From the NCBI RefSeq assembly GCF_027924405.1, contig NZ_AP026978.1:3286001-3350000 (forward strand): a DNA stretch of 64,000 bases. Reading direction: 5' to 3'. Every line of letters begins with the position of its first letter. The stretch's first letter is position 1. Both the position numbers and the translations under genes were made by a program. Positions 8,473 to 62,139 of this stretch are shown in pieces. This stretch comes from Nocardia sputorum (GTDB lineage Bacteria > Actinomycetota > Actinomycetes > Mycobacteriales > Mycobacteriaceae). The notes below the pieces were generated by a model. It was given only the letters and a program-made list of their open reading frames with translations, was not told where the DNA came from and searched no databases.

Positions 8473-8523
8473 ATGGCAGCAGACCGGCTCCCACGTGTGG
8501 GGGATGCGTTCCGCTCGGTGGGA
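8473..8523 (-). promoter_or_regulatory. Steroid-cluster promoter: 15-bp dyad plus -10-like hexamer (KSI gene)
   Basis: In gene orientation the dyad reads TCCCACCGAGCGGAA (8523-8509). A hexamer TGCCAT (8478-8473) has its second base 39 nt from the dyad centre, the spacing seen at the KstD, KshB and BVMO promoters. The hexamer deviates from TANNNT but matches that of the NTF2-like gene at 21231 (TGTCAT). Confidence 0.5.
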
Positions 8524-8757
8524 GTGGCCCGGCGAATTGCCGTCGGCCCTCATGACTGAAATTTGTCACCGCGACTGTCGAAGACCTTCGAATGCTGCCG
8601 CGTATGCGGTGCGAACGACTGTTCGCAGCTTGGGCGGTGAAGGTACGCATAACGCGCCGGGGCGGCAGGTGGTGCCGCCGTGTAGTCTCCACACCGCCTG
8701 GTGGACTGCACCGTTGTCAGCCAGCCTCGCTGCCCCGGCGCTACCAGGGACACCACG

Positions 8758-8888
8758 GTCCGAGCAGCCCAAGAGCTCCAGGACATGCTCTCCCACGCCG
8801 GCTTCACTCAGCTCCGAGTCAAGCCCTCGACCGCGACCCGCCCGTTGCGTGTGTGCTCGTCACCAACCGGACCGGCACGACCTCATGA
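8758..8888 (+). pseudogene. SAM-dependent methyltransferase, frameshifted C-terminal scrap
   Basis: One frame reads AQELQDMLSHAGFTQLRV, and the adjacent frame continues ALDRDPPVACVLVTNRTGTT and stop at 8888. Together these resemble the last 40 residues of a class I methyltransferase (ELxxMLxxAGFTxxRVxxLDLDPPVACVL). A frameshift falls between the two parts and nothing upstream is recognisable. The rest of 8524-8952 holds no gene I can support. Confidence 0.4.
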
Positions 8889-8952
8889 CCGCCGACAGCA
8901 CGCCAGCCCCGGTAGTGCCGAATGCGTGACTGAAGAAGGCCGGGCCCGCCGG

Positions 8953-9852
8953 TCAGGCGTCGCCGTAGGTGTTCACCAGGTCCTTGATATCGACGGTGGC
9001 TGCGAGGATCTCGGAGCCCAGGGCTGTCACCGCCTCGGCGGTCAGTGGTTGCACCACGACTGCGGTGATGGTCAGGGGGATGACGCCGGTGCCGGCGAGG
9101 ACGGGTGCCGAGATGGTCGCGACGGTGTGGTCGTTGCCGTCGATGAGCTCGTCGTCGAGAAAGTCGACAACGGTCAGATCGGCGACGGCGCCGGCCAGGC
9201 GCGCGGTGATGGCGTCGATCTCGCCGCTCAGTGCGTGCAGGGCGGCATAGACGCGGCCGAAGGCATGGCTACGCCGTTCGATGGCGTATCCGCGGTCTCG
9301 GACCCGCGCGAGAACCCTGGTCATGCGAGTGACGAAGGCCGGTTCGGTCGGACCCACTCGATCGAGCCAGGCCTGTTGCGCTTCGGGTGTGCTGAAGGCG
9401 ATGTACTCCCGGCCGAACGGTGCGACCAGCGGCACCGTGAATCCGGCGGTTATCGCGGGGGATGCGGCTGTCGACCCGGCTGTGTCGATGACGACGAGCG
9501 CGTCGCCCTGGGGCTGGAACAGCAGCACCTCGCAGCCGATTGTGGCGGCGAGTTCCCCGAGCCGGGCGCGTATGCGGCGGGAGGTGGCGCCGGCCGGGCG
9601 TGCGAGGGCGGCGATCGCCGGTCCCCAGCTGTAGTGACCGCTGTCGTGGTCGCGCACGATCCAGTCGTGACCGACGAGCGCGGACAGGATCGCGTGCGCA
9701 GTGGCGCGGCTGATACCGAGAGTGCGCTCGATCTCGGCCAGCGAGTAGGACCGCTGCGGTGTGCTGCCCAGCAGTTCCATGATCGCGACGACGCGATCGG
9801 TCGGTGGCGACGGGGATTGCCGTTCGGTCCGCTGCGGTGCGTCGGTGGTCAT
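8953..9852 (-). CDS. IclR family transcriptional regulator of the sulfate/alcohol cassette
   Basis: A 299-residue protein from the ATG at 9852. The N-terminal winged helix is clear (DRVVAIMELLGST, then SLAEIERTLGISRATAHAIL and SALVGHDWIVR), followed by an IclR effector domain. It is encoded just beyond the alcohol dehydrogenase on the same strand. A 16-bp sequence, ACGTCGGATATTCGAC, lies 13 bp upstream of its start and recurs exactly, in inverted orientation, before the sulfotransferase at 11066. This regulator therefore very probably controls itself and the whole 11066-18012 operon, and perhaps the divergent dehydrogenase. The effector is unknown. Confidence 0.9.
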   Translation of the reverse strand: MTTDAPQRTERQSPSPPTDRVVAIMELLGSTPQRSYSLAEIERTLGISRATAHAILSALVGHDWIVRDHDSGHYSWGPAIAALARPAGATSRRIRARLGELAATIGCEVLLFQPQGDALVVIDTAGSTAASPAITAGFTVPLVAPFGREYIAFSTPEAQQAWLDRVGPTEPAFVTRMTRVLARVRDRGYAIERRSHAFGRVYAALHALSGEIDAITARLAGAVADLTVVDFLDDELIDGNDHTVATISAPVLAGTGVIPLTITAVVVQPLTAEAVTALGSEILAATVDIKDLVNTYGDA

Positions 9853-9864
9853 GGCGCGAACTAT

Positions 9865-9880
9865 ACGTCGGATATTCGAC
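9865..9880. promoter_or_regulatory. IclR operator, copy 1
   Basis: ACGTCGGATATTCGAC with dyad symmetry (GTCGRATATYCGAC core) sits just upstream of the IclR start codon. An identical 16-mer occurs in reverse orientation at 11025-11040. Autoregulation is inferred. Confidence 0.75.
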
Positions 9881-9908
9881 GCGTCAGAGTGAGCGTCGAG
9901 TGCGGCCG

Positions 9909-10931
9909 TCACTGGTTGATCTCGATCAGAATCTTGCCGCACTCACGGTTCTGTTTCAGGGTGTTCAACGCGTCGTCGATGCTTTCGAGCGGGAAGCGGT
10001 GGCTGATGAGCGGGGTGAGGTCCCGTCGCTCGAGCAGGTCGATGGCGTCGCGGAAGCGGGGCGGGTACTCGATGGAGCCGCGGATGGTGAGCTCGCTGGT
10101 CAGCACGTGGAGGAAGTTGACCTCTACCGGGGCATAGTGGACCGCCACCACCGAGATACGCGAGCCCCGCCCGGCATTGGCGATGATGTCGCTCAGCACC
10201 TTCCCGGCCCCGGACGCTTCGATGAAACCGGTAGTGGCAGCCGTGTCGCCGGACATCGTCGGAGTGGTGCCATGCAGCAGGCGCAGCTGCTTCCACACGT
10301 CGTCGGTGGTCGGGTCGATGGTCGCGCTCGCCCCGAGGGCCTCGGCGAGGCGGCGACGCGTGGCCGACGGTTCGATGCCGACGATGCGCTCGATACCGCG
10401 GTCGGCGAGCGTGGCGATGGCGGCCAGACCGATGGGGCCGCAGCCGAATACCGCCACCGCGTCGTCGGGCGCCAGATCGGCCTGGTCGACAGCGTGCATG
10501 CCCACCGCTACAGGCTCGGCCAGTGCAGCTATCTCGAAGGGCATGTCGTCGGGGACGGGGAACAGCCGATCGCCGGCGGCGGCATCCCGTACGAGCACGG
10601 CGTCGGCCAATCCACCTTCGGGTGAGCCGTTCCCGATGCGGCCGATGTCATCTCGGCCGGGGTGCACGACGACGCACTGCCCCGGCCGCAGGTCGGTCAC
10701 CTCCGAACCGACGATGGTGATCACACCGGACATCTCATGGCCGAGGGGCATCGGGTCGGGCCCGGGACCGGCGACGCCGCCGAGGCGGATGTAGCCGAGG
10801 TCGCTACCGCAGATTCCGCAGGCGCGCAGTTCGACGACCGCGTCCCGCGGTCCGCACTCCGGCAGCTCGACACGGTCCAGGCTGACCGCGCCCGGCCCGT
10901 GGACGCGGACCTGCTTGATGGTGGAACTCAC
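9909..10931 (-). CDS. Zinc-dependent medium-chain alcohol dehydrogenase
   Basis: A 340-residue MDR enzyme from the GTG at 10931. Catalytic zinc ligands are visible: Cys38 in ACGICGSD and the GHE pair at residues 64-66. The Rossmann motif FGCGPIGLAAIATLAD binds NAD(P). The structural-zinc four-Cys lobe of classical ADHs is not evident, as in many sorbitol- or threonine-dehydrogenase-like members. It should oxidise a secondary or primary alcohol or reduce the corresponding carbonyl. It is transcribed away from the sulfotransferase operon, and the shared intergenic region contains the IclR operator, which suggests joint control. Confidence 0.88.
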   Translation of the reverse strand: MSSTIKQVRVHGPGAVSLDRVELPECGPRDAVVELRACGICGSDLGYIRLGGVAGPGPDPMPLGHEMSGVITIVGSEVTDLRPGQCVVVHPGRDDIGRIGNGSPEGGLADAVLVRDAAAGDRLFPVPDDMPFEIAALAEPVAVGMHAVDQADLAPDDAVAVFGCGPIGLAAIATLADRGIERIVGIEPSATRRRLAEALGASATIDPTTDDVWKQLRLLHGTTPTMSGDTAATTGFIEASGAGKVLSDIIANAGRGSRISVVAVHYAPVEVNFLHVLTSELTIRGSIEYPPRFRDAIDLLERRDLTPLISHRFPLESIDDALNTLKQNRECGKILIEINQ

Positions 10932-11024
10932 TGCAACCTCCTGGTCGGGTTCGACGCCGAACTCGGATCCCTTGACGGCCCGGGTCGGTACCTGCCATAT
11001 TGGCGTCGTACTTTCGAATGCTAA

Positions 11025-11040
11025 GTCGAATATCCGACGT
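11025..11040. promoter_or_regulatory. IclR operator, copy 2
   Basis: GTCGAATATCCGACGT is the exact reverse complement of the 16-mer at 9865-9880. It lies 26 bp before the sulfotransferase start and about 94 bp before the divergent dehydrogenase. That position suits repression of the sulfotransferase operon or activation of the dehydrogenase. Confidence 0.75.
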
Positions 11041-11065
11041 ACGCAAGATGTGAAGGGGCCCCTCG

Positions 11066-12337
11066 ATGGCCGATGCCGCCCGACCGATAGTCCTGGACGA
11101 CTTGACTACCCCTCGCCTCAGCGAGGTCCAGCGGAAAGTCCTTGCCTACGCCGAAGCCAACCCGGTGAGCCTGGAGATCGACCGAATCGTCGAGGAGGCG
11201 GCGGCACAGGCCGGCGCCACCGATCTGGACGACGGTGATGGCTTCGGGCAGCGCCTCTCCGCGTATGTGGACGCAGTGGAGCAGGACGAAGGGTTGACGC
11301 AGCTCGGCCGCCGCACCCTGCGCTCGCGCGTGGTGCGATTGCTGCGCAACCGACTGTCGCTGGTGGATCTGCTGAGGCGCTATCCGGAGATCGAGTCGAT
11401 CCCGATCGAGAAGCCGATCATCGTGGTCGGAATGCCGCGCTCGGGCACCACTCATCTGGTCAACCTGATCGCCGCCGACCCCCGGCGTCGGTCGCTGCCG
11501 TACTGGGAGAGTCAGGAGCCGTTGCCGGTGCCCGGTCAGGGGCCCGGTCTCGACGGCCTCGACGTGCGCTACCGCCAGGCCAAGGACCAGCACGACGCGC
11601 TGCAAGCCAGTTCGCCGGTGCTCGCGGCGATGCACGATCGCTACCCCGAAGCGATCGAGGAGGAGGTGGAGCTGCTCGACCTCGATTGCGCGAGCTACGT
11701 TTTGGAGTGGTACGCCCGGGTGCCGGCTTGGCGGGATTTCTATCTCGGGCTGGACCAGCACAGACACTACGCGTACATGCGAAAAGTTCTGCAGGCGTTG
11801 ACGTTCCTGCGAGGCCCGCGCACATGGGTGCTGAAGTCACCGCAGCACAGTGAGCAGCTCGGTCCGCTGATGCAGACCTTCCCCGACGCCACCGTCGCCT
11901 TCACCCACCGGGATCCGGTCGCGGTGATCCAGTCCACGATCACCATGATGGCTTACCCGGATCGGCTGCGCCGTCGCAGCATCGAACCGGCGTGGTTGCT
12001 CGAGTATTGGACCGACCGGGTGCATCGGCTGCTCGGCGCCAGCGTGCGCGACCGCGATCTCGTGCCCGCCGACCGGCGCATCGATATCGGCTTCCACCAT
12101 CTGAACGGCAACGAGATCCCGCTGCTCGAGCAGCTGTACGACCGTGCCGGAGTGGAACTGACCAGCGAGGTCCGCGAACGTTTCCAGGGCTACCTCGACA
12201 ACAACCCTCGCGGCAAGCACGGGCGCATCCGATACGACCTGCCCGGGCACTTCGGCGTCACCGCCGAGGAATTGCGTACGCGCTTCGACTACTACTTCGA
12301 CGCTTTCGATGTGCGCGTCGAAGGCGCGAGTTCATAG
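11066..12337 (+). CDS. PAPS-dependent sulfotransferase (Sulfotransfer_3 type)
   Basis: A 423-residue cytoplasmic sulfotransferase that would move a sulfuryl group from PAPS to a hydroxyl acceptor. The 5'-phosphosulfate P-loop GMPRSGTTHL is at residues 122-131 and the 3'-phosphate region VAFTHRDPVAVIQS follows about 150 residues later. The 110-residue helical N-terminus is usual for this actinobacterial and mycobacterial subfamily. First gene of an operon that also makes PAPS (cysD, cysNC) and destroys PAP (cysQ), so it should be the module's committed step. The acceptor is unknown; the steroid and alcohol genes nearby make a sterol or secondary alcohol plausible. Confidence 0.9.
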   Translation: MADAARPIVLDDLTTPRLSEVQRKVLAYAEANPVSLEIDRIVEEAAAQAGATDLDDGDGFGQRLSAYVDAVEQDEGLTQLGRRTLRSRVVRLLRNRLSLVDLLRRYPEIESIPIEKPIIVVGMPRSGTTHLVNLIAADPRRRSLPYWESQEPLPVPGQGPGLDGLDVRYRQAKDQHDALQASSPVLAAMHDRYPEAIEEEVELLDLDCASYVLEWYARVPAWRDFYLGLDQHRHYAYMRKVLQALTFLRGPRTWVLKSPQHSEQLGPLMQTFPDATVAFTHRDPVAVIQSTITMMAYPDRLRRRSIEPAWLLEYWTDRVHRLLGASVRDRDLVPADRRIDIGFHHLNGNEIPLLEQLYDRAGVELTSEVRERFQGYLDNNPRGKHGRIRYDLPGHFGVTAEELRTRFDYYFDAFDVRVEGASS

Positions 12338-12373
12338 CAGCAGTGATCCGAATATTTCTGAAAGGACAATGGC

Positions 12374-13633
12374 GTGAGTAGCGAACTCGAAACATTGCCG
12401 CCGATTCACCTCAGCCGCCCGGGCGCCGACCAGATGGCCGCCGCCACCGCGGAACAGGCAACCGAAGTGGCGCCAGGGATCTGGTGCTCACCGGGACTGA
12501 GTAATGCCTACCTACTGACCACCGACAGCGGCCGCGTGGTGGTCAACACCGGCATGGGCTTCGAATCCCCTGTGCACCGTGCCAATTTCGATGCGGTGGA
12601 CGACTCGCCGATTCGTTACGTAGTGCTGACACAGGGCCACTACGACCACGTCGGTGGCCTCGATCAACTGCGAGATCCCGACACCCTCGTCGTGGCCCAG
12701 GCCGATTGGCGGCGCTGGCGCGACGACAACCAGCGCCTCGCCGCCTACCGGGCGAGCAGGAGCTCGTTCGCCTTCACCGAAAAGGTCATGGCCGGCAGAA
12801 TCGCGACCCAGAACCGTTTCGGCCATGTGCCCGATCAGAGCACCCCGAACGTCGACATCGAGGTGAACGACAATCTGACGCTGACCGTGGGCGGCCGCAC
12901 GCTCGAGCTCCTGGCCACACCCGGGGGCGAGACCACCGACTCCCTGGTCCTGTGGCTGCCAGAAGAGCGGATCTGCTTGTCTGGCAATACCTTCGGCGCA
13001 CTGTTCGGGCACATTCCGAACCTGGTCACCATGCGGGGCGACCGTTACCGCGACGCACTCGCAGTGATCGATTCCATCGACCGTGTCCGCGACCTCGACG
13101 CCGAAGTCCTTCTGACGGGACACTTCGAGCCCCTCGTCGGCGCGGAGCGGATCCGGGCGGAACTCACCCGACTGCGCGACGCTGTCGAATACCTGCACGA
13201 CGCGGTCGTCGCGGGAATGAACGCGGGCAAAGACGTCTACACCCTGATGCGCGAGATCACCCTTCCACCTGCCTTGGCGGTAGGGGAGGGCTACGGCAAG
13301 GTGCCCTGGAACGTGCGCGCGATCTGGGAGAACTACTCGGGGTGGTTCCACCACCGTTCGACAACCGAACTCTACGATGTCGCACCCGCCGAAGTCGCCG
13401 CCGACCTCGTGGAGCTGGCAGGGGCCGACGCCCTGATCGATCGGGCGGCCGCCCACCTGGAAGCCGGTCGGCCGATCCACGCACTCCACCTCGTCGAAGC
13501 GATCGTTCAGGTGCAACCCGAGCACCAAGCGGCCAAGGATCTGCTGGTCCGGGCGCACCGAAAGCTGCTGGAGGACAGCACGAACTTCTGGGAATCGGCC
13601 TGGCTCACCAAGCAGATCGGAATCCACTCGTGA
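12374..13633 (+). CDS. Alkylsulfatase-like MBL-fold metallo-hydrolase
   Basis: A 419-residue protein started at GTG 12374 behind AAAGGAC; the nearby ATG runs into a stop. Residues about 30-245 form a metallo-beta-lactamase fold and 250-400 resemble the alkylsulfatase dimerisation domain, including the helical HALHLVEAIVQVQPEHQAAK segment. SdsA1-type enzymes hydrolyse alkyl sulfates with a binuclear zinc site. Two oddities: the HxHxDH motif is TQGHYDH (residues 86-92), so its first His is Gln, and the C-terminal SCP2-like domain is missing. It may desulfate the product of the neighbouring sulfotransferase or catalyse a different hydrolysis. Confidence 0.82.
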   Translation: MSSELETLPPIHLSRPGADQMAAATAEQATEVAPGIWCSPGLSNAYLLTTDSGRVVVNTGMGFESPVHRANFDAVDDSPIRYVVLTQGHYDHVGGLDQLRDPDTLVVAQADWRRWRDDNQRLAAYRASRSSFAFTEKVMAGRIATQNRFGHVPDQSTPNVDIEVNDNLTLTVGGRTLELLATPGGETTDSLVLWLPEERICLSGNTFGALFGHIPNLVTMRGDRYRDALAVIDSIDRVRDLDAEVLLTGHFEPLVGAERIRAELTRLRDAVEYLHDAVVAGMNAGKDVYTLMREITLPPALAVGEGYGKVPWNVRAIWENYSGWFHHRSTTELYDVAPAEVAADLVELAGADALIDRAAAHLEAGRPIHALHLVEAIVQVQPEHQAAKDLLVRAHRKLLEDSTNFWESAWLTKQIGIHS

Positions 13634-14373
13634 CCAACGAAATCCGTTTCGACTTCACCGGAACCAAGGTTCTGGTCACCGGTGGGACCAGTGGTATCGG
13701 ACACGCGACCGCGCTGCTGTTCCGCGACGCGGGCGCGGATGTCATCGTGACCGGAACCCGGTCGGACGCGGCGCAGTACGACGCCGACCTGACGGGTTTG
13801 GACTACCGGCGATTGGTTCTCACCGACGAGGAGTCGATCGACGAGCTGGTCGCCGGTATCTCGACCCTCGATGTTCTGATCAACAACGCCGGGGCCAACT
13901 TCCCCGGCGGCCTCGACGAGAGGTCGCCCGAAGGTTTCGAACGCTCGGTGGCACTGAACTTGGTCGGCATGTACCGGGTGACACTGACGCTTCGGGAGAA
14001 GCTGGCCGCGTCCACCACGGCGGGTGGCGGCTGCGTGATCAATCTGGCTTCGATGGCCGCGCTGCGCGCCGTGCCGATCGTGCCGGGGTATGGGGCGGCC
14101 AAGGCGGGCGTTATCAGCCTCACCCGCAACCTCGCCGTTGCCTGGGCGGGTGAGGGGATACGGATCAACGCTGTCGCGCCGGGAACGATTCGGACCCCGA
14201 TGACGGCGCCGATGCGCCCAGAGACCGCCGCCGCGGAACTCGCGCACATACCTGTCGGGCGTTTCGGCGCTGTCGACGAGATCGCCCCCACTATCGCGTT
14301 CCTGTGCACAGCGCAGAGCTCGTACACCAGCGGTGCGGTCTTCGTCGTCGACGGCGCGTCCGACTGCGTCTGA
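13630..14373 (+). CDS. Short-chain dehydrogenase/reductase
   Basis: A 247-residue classical SDR whose GTG start overlaps the MBL gene's stop (GTGA). The NAD(P) motif [16 protein letters not shown] (residues ~80), catalytic Ser in NLASMAAL and YGAAKAG (Tyr-x3-Lys) are all present, with the usual C-terminal VVDGASD. Probably interconverts a hydroxyl and a ketone on the substrate or product of the sulfo-conjugation pathway. The acidic residue after beta-2 is not clear enough to choose NAD or NADP. Confidence 0.9.
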
Positions 14374-14428
14374 CGATCCGGCCTGCGACCTCGGAGCGTC
14401 GCATTCAATCGAAATCACTGGAGTCACC

Positions 14429-15358
14429 ATGACGACCCTGGTCCACGACGAGCCCGCAACGGGTCTCACCCACCTGCAGCGGCTGGAAGCCGACAGCATC
14501 CAGATCATCCGTGAGGCAGTCGCCGAGAGCGAGCGTCCTGTGATGCTGTACTCGATAGGCAAGGACAGCTCGGTCCTGCTGCATCTGGCGCGCAAGGCGT
14601 TCCGGCCTTCGCGTTTGCCCTTCCCGCTCCTGCACGTCGATACCACCTGGAAATTCCAGGCTATGTACGCCTTCCGCGACGCGGTTGCCGCCGAACCCGA
14701 TCTCGATCTGATCGTGCACCGCAATCCCGACTGTGTCGCCCAGGGCATCAACCCCTTCGACCACGGGTCGGCTCTGCACACCCAGATGTGGAAGACCGAA
14801 GGGCTCAAACAGGCCCTGGACGAGTACGGCTTCGATCTCGCCTTCGGCGGAGCGCGTCGCGACGAGGAGAAGTCCCGGGCCAAGGAACGTGTGTTCTCCA
14901 TTCGCTCCGAAATGCACCGTTGGGACCCGAAACGGCAGCGCCCCGAGCTGTGGCGGCTCTACAACGCGAGCAAACGCCCAGGCGAGAGCGTGCGCGTCTT
15001 CCCGCTGTCGGACTGGACCGAACTCGACATCTGGCAGTACATCCACCGTGAGCAAATTCCGCTCGTCCCTTTGTATTTCGCGGCGCCCCGGCCGGTGGTG
15101 GAGCGTGACGGGACGCTGATCATGGTCGACGACGATCGGATGCGGCTGCAGCCAGGGGAACAACCGCAGCAACGCATGGTGCGCTTCCGGACCCTGGGTT
15201 GCTACCCACTCAGCGGCGCGATTCCCAGCACCGCGACCACTCTTCCCGCCATTGTGCAGGAAATGTTGCTGACCACCAGCTCAGAGCGGCAAGGCCGGAT
15301 GATCGACCACGACGGTTCGGCGTCGATGGAGAAGAAGAAGCAAGAGGGTTACTTCTGA
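14429..15358 (+). CDS. cysD: Sulfate adenylyltransferase subunit 2 (CysD)
   Basis: A 309-residue ATP sulfurylase small subunit, a PP-loop adenylyltransferase. The [14 protein letters not shown]-loop, [28 protein letters not shown] and the C-terminal [11 protein letters not shown] and EKKKQEGYF are all characteristic. With CysN it makes APS from sulfate and ATP. The start at 14429 follows a GGAG site. The stop shares bases with the ATG of cysNC (TGATG), so the subunits are coupled. Unlike assimilatory cys loci, no sulfite or APS reductase genes accompany it, which points to PAPS supply for sulfotransfer. Confidence 0.95.
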
Positions 15359-17280
15359 TGGCGCACACCACCGACGACCTCGTCTCGACCGACATCGAAG
15401 AGTATCTGCGCCGCCACGAGCGCAAGTCGCTGTTGCGGTTTCTCACCTGTGGCAGCGTCGATGACGGCAAATCGACGCTGATCGGCCGACTGCTCTACGA
15501 CAGCAAACTCGTCTTCTCCGATCACCTCGCCCAGTTGGAGCAAGACTCCCGAACAGTCGGAACCCAGAACGGCGAACTGGATTTCGCGCTACTGGTGGAC
15601 GGATTGGCCGCCGAGCGCGAACAGGGCATCACCATCGATGTGGCCTACCGCTTCTTCTCCACCCAGAAGCGGAAGTTCATCGTCGCCGACACTCCCGGAC
15701 ACGAGCAGTACACCCGCAACATGGTCACCGGCGCCTCGACCGCCGACGCCGCGGTGATCCTCGTCGATGCCCGCAAGGGGCTCCTGACGCAGACCCGTCG
15801 ACACAGCTTCCTGGTTTCGCTGCTCGGCATCCGCCACATCGTGCTCGCGGTGAACAAACTCGATTTGGTCGGCTACTCGCAACAACGGTTCGACGAGATC
15901 GAGGCCGACTATCGCCAGTTCGCCGCCGGCATCGGCCTCACCGAAATCACCTGCATTCCGATCTCGGCGCTGCGGGGAGACAACATCACCGAGACCAGCG
16001 CCGATACACCCTGGTATACCGGGCCCACGCTCGTGGGCCACCTCGAATCGCTTCCGGTCGACGATGGCGTCAGCAGCGGGCCGTTCAGGCTGCCGGTGCA
16101 GTGGGTCAACCGGCCCGACCTCGACTTCCGCGGCTACAGCGGCCAGATCGTCGGCGGCGCCGTCCGTCCCGGCGACCGCATTCGGGTCCTGCCTTCCGGA
16201 CGCGACACCACGATCGCCCGGGTGGTCACCGCGGAGGGTGACCTCGACCTCGCCGTGGCCGGCCAGTCCGTCACAGTCGTACTCGCCGACGAGATCGATG
16301 TCAGCCGCGGGGACGTCCTGGCAGACGCGAGCGCGCCCCCCGAGGTCGCCGATCAGTTCGAAGCGCATCTGGTGTGGATGAGCGAGCGCCCGATGCTTCC
16401 CGGCCGCACCTACGAGATGAAGCTGGCCACCAGCGGCGCCGTTGCCCAGGTGGCCCGGCCGAAATACACGATCAACGTCAATACCCTCGAGCACACCGCC
16501 GCTCGCGCCCTGAGACTCAACGAGATCGGGGTCTGCGATCTGCATCTGGATCGGCGAATCCCCTTCGACCCGTACGCCGCGAACCGGGACATGGGTGGAT
16601 TCATTCTCATCGACCGGCTCACCCGCGATACCGTGGCAGCGGGGATGCTGAAGTTCGCGTTGCGCCGGGCCGGCAATATTCATTGGCAGCACGTCGACAT
16701 CGATAAGCAGGTGCGAGCGCAGGCCAAAGGACAGCAACCCGCGGTCGTGTGGTTCACCGGATTGTCCGGCGCGGGTAAGTCGACCATCGCGAATCTCGTC
16801 GAGAAGCGCCTGCACGAGCAGGGATTCCACACCTACCTGCTCGACGGAGACAACGTCCGGCACGGTCTCAACGCGGATTTGGGATTCACCGACGCCGACC
16901 GGGTCGAGAACATCCGCCGGGTGGTCGAGGTCGCCAGGTTGTTCGCCGACGCCGGACTCATCGTCCTGACCTCGTTCATCGCCCCGTTCCGCGCCGAGCG
17001 CGATCTCGCACGCGAACGCATCGGCGCAGAGGACTTCTTCGAAGTACACGTCGACGCTCCACTCGAGGTCGTCGAGTCCCGTGACCACAAGGGGCTGTAC
17101 GCCAAGGCGCGCCGCGGCGAGCTGACCAACTTCACCGGCATCGATTCCCCCTATGAGGTACCGGAATCCCCGGAGCTGCGGCTGGACTCCGGCGGAGCAC
17201 ACACCCCGGAAGCTTTGGCCGAGCAGGTCATCGATCTGTTGCGAACAGCAGGAAAACTCGATCCGGACAGTGCGCGGTAG
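15358..17280 (+). CDS. cysNC: Bifunctional sulfate adenylyltransferase subunit 1 / APS kinase (CysNC)
   Basis: A 640-residue fusion. Residues 1-440 are the CysN GTPase: G1 GSVDDGKST at 32-40, G3 DTPGHEQYT and G4 NKLD, then EF-Tu-like barrels. Residues ~455-640 are APS kinase (CysC) with P-loop GLSGAGKST at about 466 and [18 protein letters not shown] hydrolysis drives APS formation with CysD and the kinase domain converts APS to PAPS on the same chain. This is the standard actinobacterial arrangement. It follows cysD without a gap and precedes cysQ by 6 bp, inside the sulfotransferase operon. Confidence 0.95.
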
Positions 17281-17286
17281 ACGGTG

Positions 17287-18012
17287 ATGGACGACCACGC
17301 TGTTGCCGCCGAGGCGGCCGCGCAAGTCGGTCGGCGGTTGTTGGCCATTCGGGAGCAGGGCGGCGCCGCGGGTGACCGGCACGGCAACGAACTGTTGCTC
17401 GAACTCCTCCATCGCCTACGCCCCGACGATGCGGTCCTGTCCGAGGAGAGCCCCGACGATCACTCCCGGCTGGACAGACGACGCGTCTGGATCATCGACC
17501 CGCTCGACGGCACCCGTGAATACGGGGAACCGCCGCGCACCGATTGGGCAGTGCACGTCGCGCTCGCCGTCGACCATGTTCCGGTGGCCGGGGCTGTCGC
17601 TCTGCCGGGAACCGGGCTCGTTCTGCACACCGGTGAACCTCCGGCGCCACCATCGCGGTCCGCGGGTCCCCTGCGTATCGCCATCTCACGTAGCCGCCCG
17701 TCCGAGTTGGTGCGACGTGTCGTCACCTCGCTGTCGGCGATGCCCGTGCCGATGGGGTCGGCCGGGGCGAAGGCGATGGCCGTGGTGCAAGGCGTCGCCG
17801 ATGCCTACCTGCACTCCGGAGGCCAGTACGAGTGGGATTCCTGCGCCCCTGTCGCGGTCGCCGCCGCTGCGGGCCTGCACGTCTCCCGTCTGGACGGCAC
17901 TACGCTGCGTTACAACCAGGCGGACCCGTACCTGCCCGATCTGCTGATCTGCCGACCCGAGTTGGTCGAGATCATCGTCGGGGCCGTTCGAACCGAACCA
18001 GCCCGGCCGTGA
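17287..18012 (+). CDS. cysQ: 3'(2'),5'-bisphosphate nucleotidase (CysQ-like)
   Basis: A 241-residue inositol-monophosphatase-fold enzyme. The metal site is shown by LSEESPDD and IIDPLDGTREYGE, plus the C-terminal YEWDSCAPVAVAAAAG. CysQ hydrolyses PAP, the inhibitory by-product of sulfotransferases, to AMP. Its place directly behind cysNC gives the operon synthesis, use and disposal of the sulfate carrier. The ATG at 17287 is preferred; GTG at 17284 is immediately in front and in frame. Slightly shorter than many CysQ proteins but complete in motifs. Confidence 0.9.
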   Translation: MDDHAVAAEAAAQVGRRLLAIREQGGAAGDRHGNELLLELLHRLRPDDAVLSEESPDDHSRLDRRRVWIIDPLDGTREYGEPPRTDWAVHVALAVDHVPVAGAVALPGTGLVLHTGEPPAPPSRSAGPLRIAISRSRPSELVRRVVTSLSAMPVPMGSAGAKAMAVVQGVADAYLHSGGQYEWDSCAPVAVAAAAGLHVSRLDGTTLRYNQADPYLPDLLICRPELVEIIVGAVRTEPARP

Positions 18013-18014
18013 AT

Positions 18015-21357: not shown

Positions 21358-21407
21358 TCCCGCTGAATGGGAGCGCGGCGCTCGTGGAGTGATGCGGGCC
21401 CTATCGT
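21358..21407 (+). promoter_or_regulatory. Steroid-cluster promoter (SMP-30/P450 operon)
   Basis: Dyad TCCCGCTGAATGGGA (21358-21372) followed by TATCGT (21402-21407), whose second base is 38 nt from the dyad centre. The first 13 bases are identical to the site before the KstD at 62180. The downstream gene starts 161 bp from the dyad centre, leaving a leader of roughly 110 nt. Confidence 0.6.
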
Positions 21408-33654: not shown

Positions 33655-33705
33655 GACCGCTGAGCGGGATGGCCCGGTGGGACGGCGCCGCGCGCGGGCT
33701 AGCGT
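33655..33705 (+). promoter_or_regulatory. Steroid-cluster promoter (kstD at 33748)
   Basis: Dyad GACCGCTGAGCGGGA (33655-33669) with perfect core CCGC-TGA-GCGG, then TAGCGT (33700-33705). The second -10 base is 39 nt from the dyad centre. The centre lies 86 bp before the ATG. Confidence 0.7.
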
Positions 33706-36847: not shown

Positions 36848-37651
36848 CTACGGGTGGGCGGCAAGCTCCGCGGCTGTGCAGCGATCCCAGATCTCGCGGG
36901 CGGCTACGCGGACGGGTCCGACCAGTTTGCGGTAGTCGAGCGCGGTGACCGGCGCGCAGATGGAGAGACCGGCGAGGTTGCCGTAAAGGTGGTCCGGTGG
37001 GCCGATGGAGACGCCGACGCAACCGAGGCCGGAGAACGCCTCCCCGCGATCGAAGGCAGCCCCCCGGTCCCTGATGACGGCGAACTCGTCCTCGAGCTGG
37101 GCGTCGGAGGCGATGCTCTGCGTCGTTCGCCGGACCAGCTCACCGGCGTCGGTGCGCACGAGCCCATGCGCGACGTGCGGATTGCGGGTCGTCTCGGTGA
37201 TCGCCAGCTGAACCTTGCCGACGGCGGTCAGGTGCGCGGGCACTCGCTGCCCCACGGCAGTGGGAGTCGGGCCGGAGGCGCGACCGTTGAACTTGGCGAG
37301 GTAGACCGTATCGCCGTGGTCGACCACGGCGAGCTGGATCGTGAGGCCGGTCCGGTGCGCGAATGCCTGCATGACCGGCCGCGCTCCCTGCAGCAGCCGG
37401 TTCTGATTCAGCGCGGCCTGGCCCAGCTCGTAAGCCTTGACGCCGAGTTCATAGGTCTGCTCCGGGGAGCGAGCGAGCCACCCGGCGGTGGCGAGCTGCT
37501 CGAGCAGGCGATGCGCGGACGAGCGGGGCAGACCGGTTCGGGAAGTCACCTGGGCGAGGGTCAACGGGCCCGCGCCGTTGAACGTCTCCAATACCAGCGC
37601 GATCCGCTCGACGACCGAGACCGGCACGCCCGCGGGACTTGATGTTCTCAC
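36848..37651 (-). CDS. IclR family transcriptional regulator
   Basis: A 267-residue regulator: VSVVERIALVLETF, LAQVTSRTGLPRSSAHRLLE and an IclR effector domain (AHLTAVGKVQLAI, GVSIGPPDHLYGNLAGLSI). GTG at 37651 is chosen over an in-frame GTG at 37666 because GGGAGG lies at ideal distance. It is divergent from the kshB homologue and next to the catabolic genes, so it is a prime candidate for the activator of the 15-bp dyad found across the cluster. Its own promoter holds a different repeat, GTCACATCACTGTGAC. Closely similar in layout to the second IclR at 52774. Confidence 0.9.
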   Translation of the reverse strand: MRTSSPAGVPVSVVERIALVLETFNGAGPLTLAQVTSRTGLPRSSAHRLLEQLATAGWLARSPEQTYELGVKAYELGQAALNQNRLLQGARPVMQAFAHRTGLTIQLAVVDHGDTVYLAKFNGRASGPTPTAVGQRVPAHLTAVGKVQLAITETTRNPHVAHGLVRTDAGELVRRTTQSIASDAQLEDEFAVIRDRGAAFDRGEAFSGLGCVGVSIGPPDHLYGNLAGLSICAPVTALDYRKLVGPVRVAAREIWDRCTAAELAAHP

Positions 37652-37669
37652 TCGACCTCCCAGCACCTC

Positions 37670-37785: not shown

Positions 37786-37836
37786 TCCCGATCAGCGAGA
37801 CGTTCCGGACCGGACCCGCGATCCCGCGCCTAGCGT
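37786..37836 (+). promoter_or_regulatory. Steroid-cluster promoter (kshB)
   Basis: Dyad TCCCGATCAGCGAGA (37786-37800) then TAGCGT (37831-37836), second base 39 nt from the dyad centre. The TAGCGTTCC stretch closely resembles the one before the gene at 62028. Confidence 0.65.
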
Positions 37837-39008: not shown

Positions 39009-39059
39009 TCCCACTCAGCAGGAGATCCACGTCACACCGGGAATCGCGCTTGCCAAGCT
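39009..39059 (+). promoter_or_regulatory. Steroid-cluster promoter (kshA-hsaA-hsaC operon)
   Basis: Dyad TCCCACTCAGCAGGA (39009-39023). The hexamer CAAGCT (39054-39059) has its second base 39 nt from the dyad centre but is a poor -10, so this is a weaker copy. It lies in the kshB-kshA gap. Confidence 0.45.
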
Positions 39060-42517: not shown

Positions 42518-42611
42518 GCGCGACCAGCATCGGATGACCAGTGCCGGGGCGGGAGTGCGCCGCCCGCCCCGGCGTCGCCGCGGGCAGTGCCGCCGGCTCG
42601 GGGAACCCGAA

Positions 42612-42662
42612 GACCGCTGGATGGGAGCGCGCCGTTCCGGAAGGCATTGCGCGACTTACGGT
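42612..42662 (+). promoter_or_regulatory. Steroid-cluster promoter (BVMO-esterase operon)
   Basis: Dyad GACCGCTGGATGGGA (42612-42626) then TACGGT (42657-42662), second base 39 nt from the dyad centre and centre 87 bp before the GTG start. Geometry is the same as for kstD. Confidence 0.65.
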
Positions 42663-42705
42663 GTGGCTCCAGCCGACGATCACCTCATCGAGGGAAGTGA
42701 ATCAA

Positions 42706-49089: not shown

Positions 49090-49140
49090 TTCCGGCCAAC
49101 GGGAGAGGTCCGGCCCCGATGTAGTGCCGGCCGATACCGT
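49090..49140 (+). promoter_or_regulatory. Steroid-cluster promoter (hsaB-like gene)
   Basis: Dyad TTCCGGCCAACGGGA (49090-49104, imperfect) and a good TACCGT (49135-49140) with second base 39 nt from the dyad centre. Centre 80 bp before the ATG. Confidence 0.55.
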
Positions 49141-50016: not shown

Positions 50017-50067
50017 TGCCGCTCACCGGGAACGCTGCCGGACAGTCTGTCTCGGCGGTGGCAGGCT
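50017..50067 (+). promoter_or_regulatory. Steroid-cluster promoter (hsaD-like gene), leaderless geometry
   Basis: Dyad TGCCGCTCACCGGGA (50017-50031) and CAGGCT (50062-50067) with second base 39 nt from the dyad centre. The ATG follows 6 bp after the hexamer, so the transcript would start at or next to the start codon. Confidence 0.5.
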
Positions 50068-51979: not shown

Positions 51980-52068
51980 AACGTAGGCGCTGCCCCGGAA
52001 CCCGGCGGCTCGTCATCCCGGTGGCCGGGAGCCGCTGGCTCCGAATACTGTTCAACGGCTTGTAAGCT
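51980..52068. promoter_or_regulatory. Divergent steroid-cluster promoter (Dabb genes / PadR)
   Basis: One dyad, TCCCGGTGGCCGGGA (52016-52030), serves both directions. Leftward TACGTT (51985-51980) has its second base 39 nt from the dyad centre. Rightward TAAGCT (52063-52068) is at 41 nt. Both start codons follow their hexamers by only 7-8 bp. Confidence 0.6.
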
Positions 52069-52076: not shown

Positions 52077-52742
52077 GTGCCAGCCGACGTCGATTCCTAC
52101 CCCAACCTGCCCGCGACCAGCTGGGCCGTTCTGGGCATGTTGTCCTTCGGTGAGGAACTGACCGGCAACGATCTGAAGAAGTGGGCGGACTGGAGCATCG
52201 GCTTCTTCTATTGGAGCCCGTCGGTCAGTCAGGTCTACGCCGAGCTGAAGAAGCTCGAGGAGCTCGAGTTGGTGCGGTCCCGCCTGGTGACCGACGAAGG
52301 GGTGCGCGGGCGGCGGTTGTACGGCATCACCGATACGGGGTTGCGCGCGCTGCGGAACTGGTCTCGGAACGCCGGGGTGGACATGCCGGTGCTCAAACAC
52401 GGTGTGATGCTGCGCCTGTGGATGGGTCACCTGCACGACCCCGAGCACCTGAAGCGGATCGTGCGGACGCACATCGACAACTTGCGCGAGCAGGCGAACC
52501 GGGCCGCCGTGCACGCCGACCGGTCGGAGCCGGAGCCGGGGTGGGCGTTCACCGAGATGAGTCTGCGGTGGGCGCAGCGTCATTTCGAGGCAGAGATCGC
52601 GCTGGCCGAACAGTTGCTGGCCGATATCGACGAGGCGGCCGCGCGTTATCGTGAGCTGGCCGTCCGCGACGAGAACGATCTTCCGGTTCCCCGTCATCCT
52701 GGGGTCTGGCGCACGGTAGGGGAGGATTCCGCGAAGAGCTGA
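52077..52742 (+). CDS. PadR family transcriptional regulator
   Basis: A 221-residue protein: SWAVLGMLSFGEELTGNDLK, a winged helix with SQVYAELKKLEELELVRSRL, GVRGRRLYGITDTGLRAL and a long C-terminal helical (Vir_act_alpha_C) region for dimerisation. PadR proteins sense phenolic or lipophilic compounds. GTG 52077 is the only sensible start and the promoter geometry suggests a leaderless transcript. It sits under the same dyad as the catabolic genes, so it belongs to the regulon and might give feedback control. Confidence 0.88.
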   Translation: MPADVDSYPNLPATSWAVLGMLSFGEELTGNDLKKWADWSIGFFYWSPSVSQVYAELKKLEELELVRSRLVTDEGVRGRRLYGITDTGLRALRNWSRNAGVDMPVLKHGVMLRLWMGHLHDPEHLKRIVRTHIDNLREQANRAAVHADRSEPEPGWAFTEMSLRWAQRHFEAEIALAEQLLADIDEAAARYRELAVRDENDLPVPRHPGVWRTVGEDSAKS

Positions 52743-52757
52743 GTTCCGGTTCGCGGT

Positions 52758-52779
52758 GGCTGAGCTCTGGTGCTCAGCC
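52758..52779. terminator. Hairpin between convergent padR and iclR genes
   Basis: GGCTGAGC (52758-52765) pairs perfectly with GCTCAGCC (52772-52779) over a 6-nt loop. It overlaps the IclR stop and follows the PadR stop by 15 bp, so it may terminate both. Confidence 0.55.
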
Positions 52780-53550
52780 TTCGGCGAGCACGCTGGGGGC
52801 GGTCGGCAGTGACCGCAGGATGTTGCGGCGCTGCAGCGTAGGGGTGACTCGGCCGCCGGCGGTCATACTGCGCCAGATGGCATGTGCGGCAAGCTGGACC
52901 GGGGCGGTCATCCGGCTGTCGAAGCTCATCCGGCTGAGCGGTCCGCAGATCGACACGGCGGTCGTCGCCTCACCGACCGGCCCGATCGGTGCGGCGATAC
53001 AGCCGAATCCGTGCAGCGCGCCGTTGCGTTCGACGGCGTATCCGAGTTCCCGGGTGAGCGCGCTGCCGGGCTCGTCTCGGCCGGCGAAGGCGAGCAGGAC
53101 CTTGCCGAGCGCCGACTTCGAGGCAGGCAACCTGCCTCCGACACGGGTCGGCACGTGGGCGGCAAGGCGTCCGCCGATCTTGTCCAGATACACGACGTCG
53201 TCCCCATCGAGCACCGCAAGATGCACGACCATGCCGGTGGCTCGATAGAGGTGCTGCAGGTGCTCGCCGGATGCCGCGTGCACCCGGTCTTGATGGACGG
53301 CGAGCGACCCGAGCTCGACGAGACGGATACCGAGGCTGTAGTTGCGACCCTCCCGCCGAAGCCACCGCAGCTGGACCAACCGGTCCAGCATCCGGTGGGC
53401 GGAGGAGCGCGGCAGGCCGGTACGGGAGACGACCTCCGTCAGGCCGAGGCTGTCGCGTCCGTCGAACGCGTCGAGGACGAGCGACAGCCGGTCGAGAAGG
53501 GCGCTGGGGGTAGTCGCCTCACTGGGCCGCATGTCCTGCGCGATCGTCAT
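52774..53550 (-). CDS. IclR family transcriptional regulator
   Basis: A 258-residue IclR protein: LLDRLSLVLDAFDG, LTEVVSRTGLPRSSAHRMLD and RLVQLRWLRREGRNYSLG (winged helix), then an effector domain (LPASKSALGKVLLAF, HGFGCIAAPIGPVGEATTAV). Its DNA-recognition helix, SRTGLPRSSAHR, is identical to that of the IclR at 36848 over these residues, so the two may read the same or similar operators. It is a second candidate for the regulator of the 15-bp dyad. Its own upstream gap contains ATTTC-N6-GAAAT (53594-53609). Confidence 0.9.
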   Translation of the reverse strand: MTIAQDMRPSEATTPSALLDRLSLVLDAFDGRDSLGLTEVVSRTGLPRSSAHRMLDRLVQLRWLRREGRNYSLGIRLVELGSLAVHQDRVHAASGEHLQHLYRATGMVVHLAVLDGDDVVYLDKIGGRLAAHVPTRVGGRLPASKSALGKVLLAFAGRDEPGSALTRELGYAVERNGALHGFGCIAAPIGPVGEATTAVSICGPLSRMSFDSRMTAPVQLAAHAIWRSMTAGGRVTPTLQRRNILRSLPTAPSVLAEG

Positions 53551-55533: not shown

Positions 55534-55621
55534 TGCGACAGCCCACCATTTTTGGCGAAGTGTGTCAATATTGCGCCGCAGTCGATCGTCGATGCTGGAA
55601 CAGCGGAAAGCAGGTGCTCTG

Positions 55622-56473: not shown

Positions 56474-56510
56474 CCCGGATCCTCTTTTCCGGCGCTTCCG
56501 CCACCGATTG

Positions 56511-56525
56511 TCCCGGTCACCGGGA
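56511..56525 (+). promoter_or_regulatory. Steroid-cluster dyad (ABC transporter operon)
   Basis: TCCCGGTCACCGGGA, a perfect inverted repeat (TCCCGG-TCA-CCGGGA), 141 bp from the transporter start. Downstream CATAAT (56558-56563) is an acceptable -10, with its second base 41 nt from the dyad centre. Confidence 0.55.
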
Positions 56526-56658
56526 AGTGCCCTTCGGGGACGGCGGCGGAGTGCGCACATAATTCTCCGCCCACATCGGCAGTGATGTGGCTCACGCGAG
56601 GACCTTTTCGTCGGGACGACCCGGTGCGGCCTCGCCTTCGGAGAAGGAGAACCAGATC

Positions 56659-57903: not shown

Positions 57904-57940
57904 CCCGCCCGGCACCGGTGTACGGCCAGGGAGATCAGCC

Positions 57941-60721: not shown

Positions 60722-61449
60722 CCACGCTGGAATGCCGCGGTGTGACCGCGGGCTACCTGAAGGAACGCCCGTGTGTGCGCGATGTCCATCTGACTCTCGA
60801 GCAGGGCGAGATCACCTGCCTGCTCGGCCCGAACGGTGCCGGTAAGACAACTCTGCTGGAGACGCTGGCCGGGCTGCTCCCGTATACCGGCGGCGAGGTC
60901 AGGGTCAGGGGCCGGAATGTGCACAGCGGCCGCCCGCGCGACGCGGTACGGGCGGGAATGGTGCTGGTGCCCGACGATCGCGCCTTGTTCCGCCAGCTGA
61001 GCGCCCGGCAGAACCTTCTGCTGGCGATCACCGAGCGGTCGCGGCGACGCACCGGGCTGCGCCAAGTGCTGGAGTACTTCCCCGCCCTGGAGAAGCGGCT
61101 GCCGGTGGCCGCCGGGCGCCTCTCCGGCGGCGAGCAGCAGATGCTGGCCATCGCCCGAGCCATCCTGCAACGGCCCGCGGTGCTGCTCATCGATGAGCTG
61201 AGCATGGGCTTGGCCCCGGTCATCGTCAGCGAAATCCTGGATGTGCTGAAGCAACTCGCCGACACCGAGGGCACCAGCGTCCTGCTGGTGGAACAGCACG
61301 TGCACTTGGCGCTCGGCGTCGCCGACAAGGCTGTCGTCCTGGTGCACGGACAGATCGCCGACCAGGGCAGCGCGGCGGAGCTCCGCGATGACCCCGGCCG
61401 GGTCGAACGCGCTTACCTCGGCGCCGATGCGGCGGTGAGCGCGCACTGA
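60718..61449 (+). CDS. livF: ABC transporter ATP-binding protein (LivF type)
   Basis: A 243-residue ATPase starting at GTG 60718, which overlaps the fusion gene's stop. Walker A GPNGAGKTT, LSGGEQQMLAIARAIL signature, Walker B VLLIDELSMGL (Asp-Glu) and VLLVEQHVHLAL switch. VRAGMVLVPDDRALFRQLSA is characteristic of LivF. It pairs with the C-terminal ATPase domain of the LivHMG fusion. The operon ends at the hairpin 15 bp downstream. Confidence 0.93.
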   Translation: MTTLECRGVTAGYLKERPCVRDVHLTLEQGEITCLLGPNGAGKTTLLETLAGLLPYTGGEVRVRGRNVHSGRPRDAVRAGMVLVPDDRALFRQLSARQNLLLAITERSRRRTGLRQVLEYFPALEKRLPVAAGRLSGGEQQMLAIARAILQRPAVLLIDELSMGLAPVIVSEILDVLKQLADTEGTSVLLVEQHVHLALGVADKAVVLVHGQIADQGSAAELRDDPGRVERAYLGADAAVSAH

Positions 61450-61463
61450 CGCTGGAACGACGG

Positions 61464-61492
61464 GCGAGCCACCGCGTAACGCGGTGGCTCGC
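61464..61492. terminator. Terminator hairpin after livF
   Basis: A perfect 13-bp stem (GCGAGCCACCGCG at 61464-61476 pairs with 61480-61492) and TAA loop. It lies between the convergent livF and the NTF2-like gene and is followed by TGTGTTGT. Confidence 0.85.
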
Positions 61493-61512
61493 TGTGTTGT
61501 GGCAGGAACAGG

Positions 61513-62028
61513 TCAGGAGGTGGCAGCCGCGGCGGCCTGCTGCTTGCACCAGGCGAGTTCGTCCTCGCTCAAGGTGCCCAGTTCCATGGCGCGCTGGATC
61601 CACTTCGGGACCAGTTCGACGAACTCGGCCGGGTTGTAGATGTCCTCCTCCTTGGAGAATTTCCCCTCACCGGCGTAGGTCAGGATGCTGATGTTGTCCG
61701 CGCCCATCCGCGAGCCGTCGCCCGGATCACGCATCAGGTTGTTCAGCTTCACCACGATCACCCCGTTGACCTCATCGATCAGGTGCCAGTAGTCGGGGAA
61801 CGATGTCATCGCCGCGCCGGGGAACGTCGCCAGCGTCGGCTCGACCCACGCCCAGATGGCATCGCGGCCCTTCAGCACGCCGACCATCTGCTCGTGGTAC
61901 TCGGCGTCGGCGGTGAACAGGTCGACGAAATCACGCCAGCTGCCTTCGCCCGCGGCCGCGCGGGCAACGGTCGAATGCCACGTTCGGTAAGCCTTTTCCA
62001 GTTCTTCTCTGCTCCAGGTGTTGCTCAT
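61513..62028 (-). CDS. NTF2/SnoaL-like protein
   Basis: A 171-residue protein with the NTF2-like fold: WSREELEKAYRTWHSTVARA, FVDLFTADAEYHEQMVG, VLKGRDAIWAWV, and VIVVKLNNLMRDPGDGSRM. A C-terminal helical addition (VELVPKWIQRAMELGT, LSEDELAWCKQQAA) sets it apart from KSI. It is the third NTF2-fold gene in the window under the same dyad promoter. Its -10 TAGCGT ends 6 bp before the ATG, so the transcript is probably leaderless. Possible isomerase or dehydratase for a steroid intermediate. Confidence 0.82.
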   Translation of the reverse strand: MSNTWSREELEKAYRTWHSTVARAAAGEGSWRDFVDLFTADAEYHEQMVGVLKGRDAIWAWVEPTLATFPGAAMTSFPDYWHLIDEVNGVIVVKLNNLMRDPGDGSRMGADNISILTYAGEGKFSKEEDIYNPAEFVELVPKWIQRAMELGTLSEDELAWCKQQAAAAATS

Positions 62029-62034
62029 GCCCGG

Positions 62035-62086
62035 ACGCTAGCCAGCTGCTGATCCGCAGGGCAGCGGCAGTGTCCAGTGAGCGGGA
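62035..62086 (-). promoter_or_regulatory. Steroid-cluster promoter (NTF2-like gene at 62028)
   Basis: In gene orientation the dyad reads TCCCGCTCACTGGAC (62086-62072). TAGCGT (62040-62035) has its second base 40 nt from the dyad centre. The sequence TAGCGTCC resembles the kshB promoter's TAGCGTTCC. Confidence 0.6.
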
Positions 62087-62088
62087 TC

Positions 62089-62139
62089 TCCCGCTGAATG
62101 GAAAGTCGAGCCGGTCTCTGCGGGCATGGAACTTACCGT
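62089..62139 (+). promoter_or_regulatory. Steroid-cluster promoter (kstD at 62180)
   Basis: Dyad TCCCGCTGAATGGAA (62089-62103), two bases from the divergent dyad at 62072-62086, followed by TACCGT (62134-62139), second base 39 nt from the dyad centre. Centre 84 bp before the ATG. Confidence 0.65.

Follow-up and report, generated by a model that had tools for sequence, protein, structure and literature searches.

The window analysed here, a stretch of 64,000 nucleotides (G000:C1:3286001-3350000) from a 7.43-Mb single-contig Nocardia genome, carries steroid catabolism genes, among them kshA, kshB, two KstD-like genes (33736 and 62126; positions are those of the window), HsaB-like and HsaD-like genes and two Baeyer-Villiger monooxygenases (BVMO1 and BVMO2). 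It also encodes three regulators: IclR-A (36848..37666, minus strand; Pfam HTH_IclR and IclR_C), divergent from kshB; IclR-B (52774..53550, minus strand; HTH_IclR and a partial IclR_C), which co-occurs with the element described below; and a PadR-family protein (52077..52742, plus strand; Pfam PadR), with one copy of the element's dyad, at 52016, in the gap before its gene. A first-pass annotation of the sequence had proposed a bipartite promoter present in about 14 copies. In its refined form, the element consists of the palindromic dyad TCCCGNTSANCGGGA, then 30 nt (29–32), then a −10 hexamer TASCGT, with no −35; a dyad with a −10 at this spacing is called a module here. The element is real: its spacing is rigid, it is concentrated in steroid gene clusters that bear IclR genes, and it is conserved as far as one Rhodococcus cluster.

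The dyad alone is common. With up to 3 mismatches, it has 15 matches in the window against 5.7 expected, a count reached in 1 of 100 shuffles, and three of the reported copies (42612, 49090 and 62072, with 4–5 mismatches each) fall outside these 15. Genome-wide, with up to 2 mismatches, it occurs at 81 places, against 20 for a reversed control, and at this stringency the counts are similar whether or not a genome has the IclR regulators. Since they do not follow the regulator, the dyad alone is weak evidence and was dropped as such, and the case therefore rests on the dyad together with a −10 at a fixed spacing. We trained a weight model on 13 of the genome's own sites (palindromic dyad, gap of 28–32 nt, −10) and ran it over 864 kb of the same genome; the high scores of the 13 training sites prove nothing by themselves, and the threshold of 22 bits was set after the first scans. 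Above 22 bits, the window has six modules at the right spacing, against a mean of 0.25 and a maximum of 3 at wrong spacings. No module of at least 22 bits was detected in a 400-kb background from the same genome (0 of 20 stretches; top score 17.7) or in 15 other flanking stretches from it, so the rarity elsewhere that the proposal implied was borne out. All scores of at least 19 bits in this genome lie in the window, to its right (3351–3368 kb), at 3094–3096 kb or at 2906 kb; four of the scanned stretches (L001, L011, L019 and L020) and about half of the background stretches had been picked for dyads seen in the genome-wide dyad scan.

The first-pass annotation had placed a −10-like hexamer 38–41 nt from the dyad centre, counted to its second base, in 13 of 14 copies, which proved too generous. 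A strict TANNNT at 38–40 nt is present at eight of the 14 sites: at 38 in 21358, at exactly 39 in 33655, 37786, 42612, 49090, 52016 (minus strand) and 62089, and at 40 in 62072, there on the minus strand. With one mismatch allowed at 38–41 nt on the reported strand, 11 sites pass (all except 8509, 21318 and 62072), a loose test that is also passed by 21.5% of random positions. By chance, TANNNT is expected at exactly 39 with a probability of 0.0008 per position. Five of the six sites previously singled out for this distance do carry it (33655, 37786, 42612, 49090 and 52016), and the sixth, 50017, has CAGGCT.

The geometry could be refined with modules from other genomes. Among 118 Nocardia genomes including this one, IclR-A orthologs (at least 79% identity) were found in 16 and IclR-B orthologs (at least 78%) in 17; related IclR proteins in 22 further genomes are referred to as tier 2. 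A scan restricted to gaps of 28–32 nt gave 131 modules, which collapsed to 57 non-redundant ones (less than 60% shared over 80 nt), with gaps of 29 (n=5), 30 (n=37), 31 (n=14) and 32 nt (n=1). The consensus of the 37 gap-30 modules is TCCCGNTSANCGGGA-N30-TASCGT, and their spacer shows no −35 signal. When all gaps from 0 to 89 nt were opened, in genomes outside the training set, the peak still lay at 29–32 nt: strong −10 matches at gaps 28 to 32 numbered 0, 0, 12, 8 and 1 in 47 tier-2 dyad-strands (other gaps: mean 0.15, maximum 3) and 0, 3, 10, 1 and 0 in 65 tier-1 dyad-strands (mean 0.14, maximum 2). An IclR-type activated promoter is expected to have its operator at a fixed distance upstream of the −10 and a weak or absent −35, and this is what was found. 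The commonest distance from the −10 to a start codon is 6 nt (8 of the 57 modules; distances of 0–59 nt considered, reading frames of at least 90 codons), followed by 53 nt (six modules). Taking a start codon 6 nt past the −10 as +1 puts the dyad centre at about −50, as had been proposed for a shared element of fixed spacing. In the window, the 6-nt rule fits 62072 (minus strand; ATG 62028) and 50017 (ATG 50074), and at 52016 (minus strand) 7 nt separate the −10 from ATG 51972. We regard the promoter element as established by computation to a high degree.

Each reported site was then scored in the upstream regions of orthologous genes from tier-1 relatives, Rhodococcus jostii RHA1 and R. erythropolis R138 (identity cut-off 68%, or 45% for the two Rhodococcus), with identical upstream matches merged and the dyad counted as the best one within 280 nt at any gap. 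By this comparison, 11 of the 14 sites are backed by orthologs, one of them (42612) marginally. The strongest are full modules. Before kshB, between it and the divergent IclR-A gene, lies the module 37786..37836 (plus strand; gap 30, −10 TAGCGT; 27.5 bits, training site), with more than 20 bits in all six kshB ortholog upstreams, including RHA1. At 62089..62139 (plus strand; gap 30, TACCGT; 27.2 bits, training site), before KstD 62126, all five ortholog upstreams, again including RHA1, exceed 20 bits. It forms a divergent pair, with one promoter in each direction, with 62035..62086 on the minus strand (dyad 62072–62086, gap 31, −10 TAGCGT at 62040–62035), which precedes a SnoaL-like gene (61513) starting at ATG 62028 and scores 21.5 bits although it lies outside the training set; two of three SnoaL ortholog upstreams exceed 20 bits and the third has 20.0. 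A tandem reading of this pair is ruled out, as the two point apart. The module 21358..21407 (plus strand; dyad 21358–21372, gap 29, −10 TATCGT at 21402–21407; 26.8 bits, training site), before SMP-30, P450 and reductase genes, is matched above 20 bits in both SMP-30 ortholog upstreams, and 49090..49140 (plus strand; gap 30, TACCGT; 24.3 bits, training site), before the HsaB-like flavin reductase, in three of five, including RHA1. For 33655..33705 (plus strand; gap 30, TAGCGT; 23.9 bits, training site), before the KstD-like gene 33736, four of eight ortholog upstreams have at least 20 bits, three more have 15.9–17.9, and RHA1 has 9.6. The module 51980..52030 (minus strand; dyad 52016–52030, gap 30, −10 TACGTT at 51985–51980; 23.0 bits, training site) serves a Dabb-domain gene pair; it reaches at least 20 bits at 13 of 17 IclR-B loci, and more than 20 bits in four of five Dabb ortholog upstreams. 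On the PadR side of the same dyad, none of 11 ortholog upstreams exceeds 20 bits, and seven have a dyad of at least 14.

Four sites are weaker. At 50017..50067 (plus strand; weak −10 CAGGCT at gap 30, exactly 39; 17.9 bits, training site), before the HsaD-like hydrolase, the dyad reaches at least 14 bits in four of five ortholog upstreams, with no total above 20. Two further sites had been set aside, together with 18075, as possibly due to chance, and are ortholog-backed. At 39009..39059 (plus strand; degenerate −10 CAAGCT at gap 30, exactly 39; 11.0 bits), before kshA, a dyad of at least 14 bits is present in seven of 13 KshA ortholog upstreams, three of which carry the kshB-type dyad, and four more stand at 13.9. 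The perfect dyad in 56511..56563 (plus strand; CATAAT at gap 32, 41 nt; 15.6 bits), before an ABC (ATP-binding cassette) substrate-binding protein gene, recurs in six of six ortholog upstreams, five of them with CATAAT at gap 32 and none with a total above 20. The marginal module 42612..42662 (plus strand; degenerate dyad, gap 30, TACGGT), before the BVMO1–hydrolase gene, has just 16.9 bits despite being a training site; of seven ortholog upstreams, none exceeds 20 bits and none has a dyad of at least 14, while the module scores 15.7–19.0 in three and 8.7 in one. No separate module serves BVMO2 (47032), although both BVMOs had been listed as targets. The BVMO1 gene itself (42541–45267) joins BVMO and hormone-sensitive-lipase-type hydrolase domains in one uninterrupted open reading frame (ORF), as in genome G039 (L100); at least one stop separates the two matches in 10 other Nocardia tier-1 stretches and in R138.

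The remaining three sites are unsupported, in a sparse comparison. For 8509 there is a single ortholog upstream (RHA1, with a different 17.4-bit module); for 18075 there are two, with one dyad of 14.1 bits; and 21318 was scored only jointly with 21358. Minus-strand TGNCAT hexamers 39 nt away at 8509 and 21318 were rejected after a hand check, since their ATG does not share the reading frame of the ORF. Two proposed targets, the ketosteroid-isomerase-like gene (8053) and the flavin adenine dinucleotide (FAD) dehydrogenase at 18316, are likewise unsupported. Not all copies lie in gaps before genes, as had been stated: 8509, 42612, 49090, 50017 and 52016 sit inside the longest ORF of their gene, where later start codons fit better. 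As a control, ten upstream regions without a reported site gave no module above 20 bits in their orthologs; one of them, that of IclR-B, has dyads of at least 14 bits in eight of 13 ortholog upstreams. IclR-A shares the kshB dyad, and three of 13 upstreams exceed 20 bits in its own direction. At 13 of 16 loci, the IclR-A gap scores at least 18 bits with gap 30, pointing away from IclR-A. The other three (G027, G103 and G108) keep the dyad, and no kshB was found in those stretches; at least two of the scoring genomes (G096 and G003) also have no kshB there, the next gene then being KshA.

Across Nocardia, modules accompany the IclR genes. In tier 1, 41 modules of at least 22 bits were detected in 466 kb, in 23 of 24 stretches (wrong spacings: mean 1.41, maximum 5). 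In tier 2, there are 70 in 502 kb (26 stretches from 21 genomes), whereas the 44 wrong spacings average 0.75 and never exceed 4; the 70 lie in 22 of the 26 stretches and 19 of the 21 genomes, and are not all independent, given near-identical genomes (L173/L175) and a few dyads counted on both strands. In 20 of the 22 tier-2 genomes, only the first 150–170 residues of the IclR protein match well (67–71%); in the exceptions, G114 and G098, most of the protein aligns, at 63% and 56%. In 19 of 23 genomes (the 22 of tier 2 plus G070), no more than about 4 kb separates the best KshA match from the IclR gene; the two are on different contigs in G013 and G032 and apart in G070 and G114. At KshA loci elsewhere, from a search covering 24 of the 79 genomes with neither an IclR-B nor a tier-2 match, no module was detected (0 of 20 and 0 of 13; 33 loci, 650 kb); 31 of these loci have no IclR match, and two (L145 and L146) have one of 42–43%.

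Outside Nocardia, where the threshold was 18 bits, the clearest case is the cluster on plasmid pRHL1 of RHA1 (L205), with orthologs of KshA (77%), KshB (66%), HsaB (70%), HsaD (65%), PadR (72%), KstD 62126 (73%) and IclR-B (54%). Its stretch has seven modules, where wrong spacings average 1.23 and reach at most 3, and four stand at orthologous promoters: kshB (25.9 bits), HsaB (22.7), Dabb (21.2) and KstD (27.9). A module separates the IclR-B gene from the divergently transcribed KstD gene, an arrangement shared with L112 and L119, and no separate IclR-A ortholog was found in the 40-kb RHA1 stretch. Streptomyces NBC_00841 (L208) has four modules (wrong spacings: mean 0.82, maximum 2). Within the order, 32 of 298 genomes and five of 76 genera, including Nocardia, have IclR-B homologues (E ≤ 1e-40).

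In the genome under study, the element also continues beyond the window, and the regulon seems to extend about 20 kb to its right (L011:1318-18453, L012:240), where modules precede KstD-like, acyl-CoA dehydrogenase-like and other genes. A further IclR gene, IclR-C (L011:14226), lies there, with matches in 15 of the 118 genomes; it was rejected as the regulator, as eight of 10 fetched loci (flanks of about 1.5 kb) have no site above 18 bits. About 380 kb away, an apparently leaderless gene for a NIT-domain histidine kinase follows a 27.7-bit module (L019:10872-10886, minus strand). Near genes for phosphoenolpyruvate-utilising enzymes lie two dyads (L001:1464 and L001:1611) spaced by 147 bp, without a good −10 at the usual distance, and a similar pair, 114 bp apart, is present in G080 and G084. 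Within the window, sulfotransferase, alkyl-sulfatase-like, phosphoadenosine phosphosulfate (PAPS)-reductase-domain, GTPase/adenosine phosphosulfate (APS)-kinase and inositol-phosphatase-like genes (11066–18012) stand beside the steroid genes and are perhaps a group for steroid sulfate turnover. Scans of the window for tRNAs, Rfam families and tandem repeats gave nothing bearing on the element.

The proteins encoded at 36848, 52774 and 52077 had been put forward as possible binders, and the field narrows to IclR-B-type proteins. An IclR gene lies in or beside the regulated cluster in the window (A and B), in tier 2 and in RHA1. The gap-30 logo (37 sites), T-C-C-C-G-N-T-S-A-N-C-G-G-G-A, resembles the IclR group-1 consensus, as proposed: compared by eye with this family alone, the core is the same and the outer arm is mostly C rather than T. 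The recognition helix GLPRSSAHR is identical in IclR-A, IclR-B, RHA1 IclR-B and eight of nine aligned tier-2 proteins; in D-type IclR proteins it is GLPRSTVHR. The helix alone decides nothing, because an IclR protein of the module-free locus L145 shares it. IclR-B is the best candidate, and we infer that it binds the dyad; IclR-A, judging from its identical helix, probably binds it too. At 97% identity, the IclR-A protein matches one from Nocardia araoensis NBRC 100135, which places the genome in Nocardia. About 30 residues of the effector domain are missing from IclR-B, two aligned Nocardia orthologs and the RHA1 ortholog, and the tier-2 relatives keep this region.

We consider it likely that these genes form an IclR-activated, KstR-independent steroid regulon with this promoter as its activator-dependent target. 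A dimer or tetramer of an IclR-family protein (IclR-B type, probably also IclR-A) would bind TCCCGNTSANCGGGA centred near −50, adjoining a promoter with a TASCGT −10 and no −35, and would recruit RNA polymerase in response to a steroid or one of its catabolites; for some targets, leaderless mRNAs would start at +1. Several observations weigh against this. The L145 IclR combines GLPRSSAHR with a locus free of modules, L146 has an IclR homologue and no module either, and the IclR-C helix differs from GLPRSSAHR by a single residue. IclR-B itself lacks the roughly 30 effector-domain residues noted above. Modules are present in just four of 11 D-type stretches and absent from the fetched 20 kb of two tier-2 genomes (G089 and G030), and G070, which has IclR-B, has one module in 60 kb (one of three stretches). 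Beyond Nocardia, R138 (L206; IclR-A 67%, no IclR-B ortholog) has two modules against a wrong-spacing maximum of 2, R. opacus 1CP (L207) one against one, and R. qingshengii (L209) none, and these three lend no support. Our confidence in the full mechanism is slightly lowered because of the L145 helix and these three records, which stay within their controls. More tentatively, and with the balance against it, actinobacteria could have here a general steroid regulon that is their third, after those of KstR and KstR2. In it, IclR paralogues (A, B, D and tier 2) would share operator and geometry in Nocardia, Rhodococcus and possibly Streptomyces, and IclR-B, with part of its ligand domain lost, would act at these sites jointly with a paralogue that senses the ligand.

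The same IclR protein might instead act as a repressor, or as a dual regulator, occupying the dyad when ligand-free and released from it by steroid. Repressors, activators and dual regulators all occur in the IclR family according to the parts consulted of PMC8222616, and an unknown repressor has been proposed for R. ruber kshA1/kshA2 in those of PMC8228715. However, the gap is rigid at 29–32 nt, the dyad keeps to a single side of the −10, farther upstream than the −35 zone, and there is no −35 signal; repression would need no such rigidity, which makes this reading less likely, and we consider it improbable. A PadR-family binder (52077) fits worse than IclR, and its probability is low. A PadR homologue does accompany IclR-B in most module-bearing clusters, which also counts against our preferred assignment, and is 72% identical in RHA1; yet modules occur without a detected PadR gene in L118, L208 and L206, for example (stretch ends could hide one), and D-type stretches have PadR in 11 of 11 and modules in four of 11. 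The dyad looks like the IclR-type consensus, from which PadR operators differ. Still less probable is an alternative sigma factor reading the dyad as its upstream element: this would account for a conserved TASCGT at a fixed distance without a −35, but the upstream half is a palindrome of the activator kind, and 30 nt is far beyond the usual promoter spacer of 16–19 nt. Chance or GC-driven palindromes chosen by eye are the least credible explanation, despite the abundance of the dyad irrespective of the regulator and the three unsupported sites; for the bipartite element this is already refuted by the wrong-spacing controls, the background scans and the conservation in other genomes, with 8509, 18075 and 21318 excepted.

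The IclR-activated regulon we favour would govern the same kind of genes as the KstR and KstR2 regulons, those of 3-ketosteroid catabolism in actinobacteria (KstD, KshA, KshB and Hsa-type enzymes). KstR and KstR2, in contrast, are TetR repressors with other operators, neither of which is above chance in the window, in line with the original proposal: the KstR operator TNNAACNNGTTNNA has no perfect match there and five one-mismatch matches against 3.8 expected, and the KstR2 operator AAGCAAGNNCTTGCTT has none with up to 3 mismatches. The 33 other KshA loci, in turn, are without the new module. Regulators besides KstR/KstR2 must exist for R. ruber kshA1/kshA2 according to the sections consulted of PMC8228715, and they are likewise said to exist for cluster D of N. 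simplex. IclR genes beside steroid genes appear, as annotation only, in the available parts of papers on R. equi (PMC8281962) and R. ruber (PMC6498646). For R. ruber kstD2, the transcription start was placed 48 bp before the codon, with a TAGCCT deemed rather far from it (PMC5348764, in part); this promoter was found in none of 198 genomes of the searched genus, which may not include that species. In the open-access literature, from sources available in part and with subscription journals outside the search, we found no report of this operator or of an IclR-controlled steroid regulon with a defined site.

Group-1 IclR operators such as those of NdgR/LtbR (consensus GKTYCRYW3-4RYGRAMC; Suvorova and Gelfand 2021, PMC8222616, in part) are also odd-length palindromes near gene starts and beside IclR genes; here, by contrast, the outer arm has mostly C for T, the distance to the −10 is rigid and there are several promoters per cluster, where IclR-family members usually regulate themselves plus one or two neighbouring operons (same parts of that source). 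In Pimelobacter (Nocardioides) simplex, a comparable island induced by steroids has an IclR gene, SRTF2, next to that of a ketosteroid dehydrogenase, but the operator studied there, in the sections of PMC7062782 consulted, is a 22-bp palindrome of the TetR-type SRTF1, and no operator for SRTF2 appears in those sections. The element yields a list of genes probably in one pathway, and steroid-responsive promoters for biotechnology may follow. With an operator defined, a promoter geometry given and a candidate regulator named, both the non-KstR regulation and the role of the pRHL1 cluster become directly testable. Also close is this A/B-ring cluster of RHA1, the function of which is called unknown in the excerpts of PMC4810484, where we met no regulator for it: it is an orthologous cluster, with four modules at orthologous promoters.

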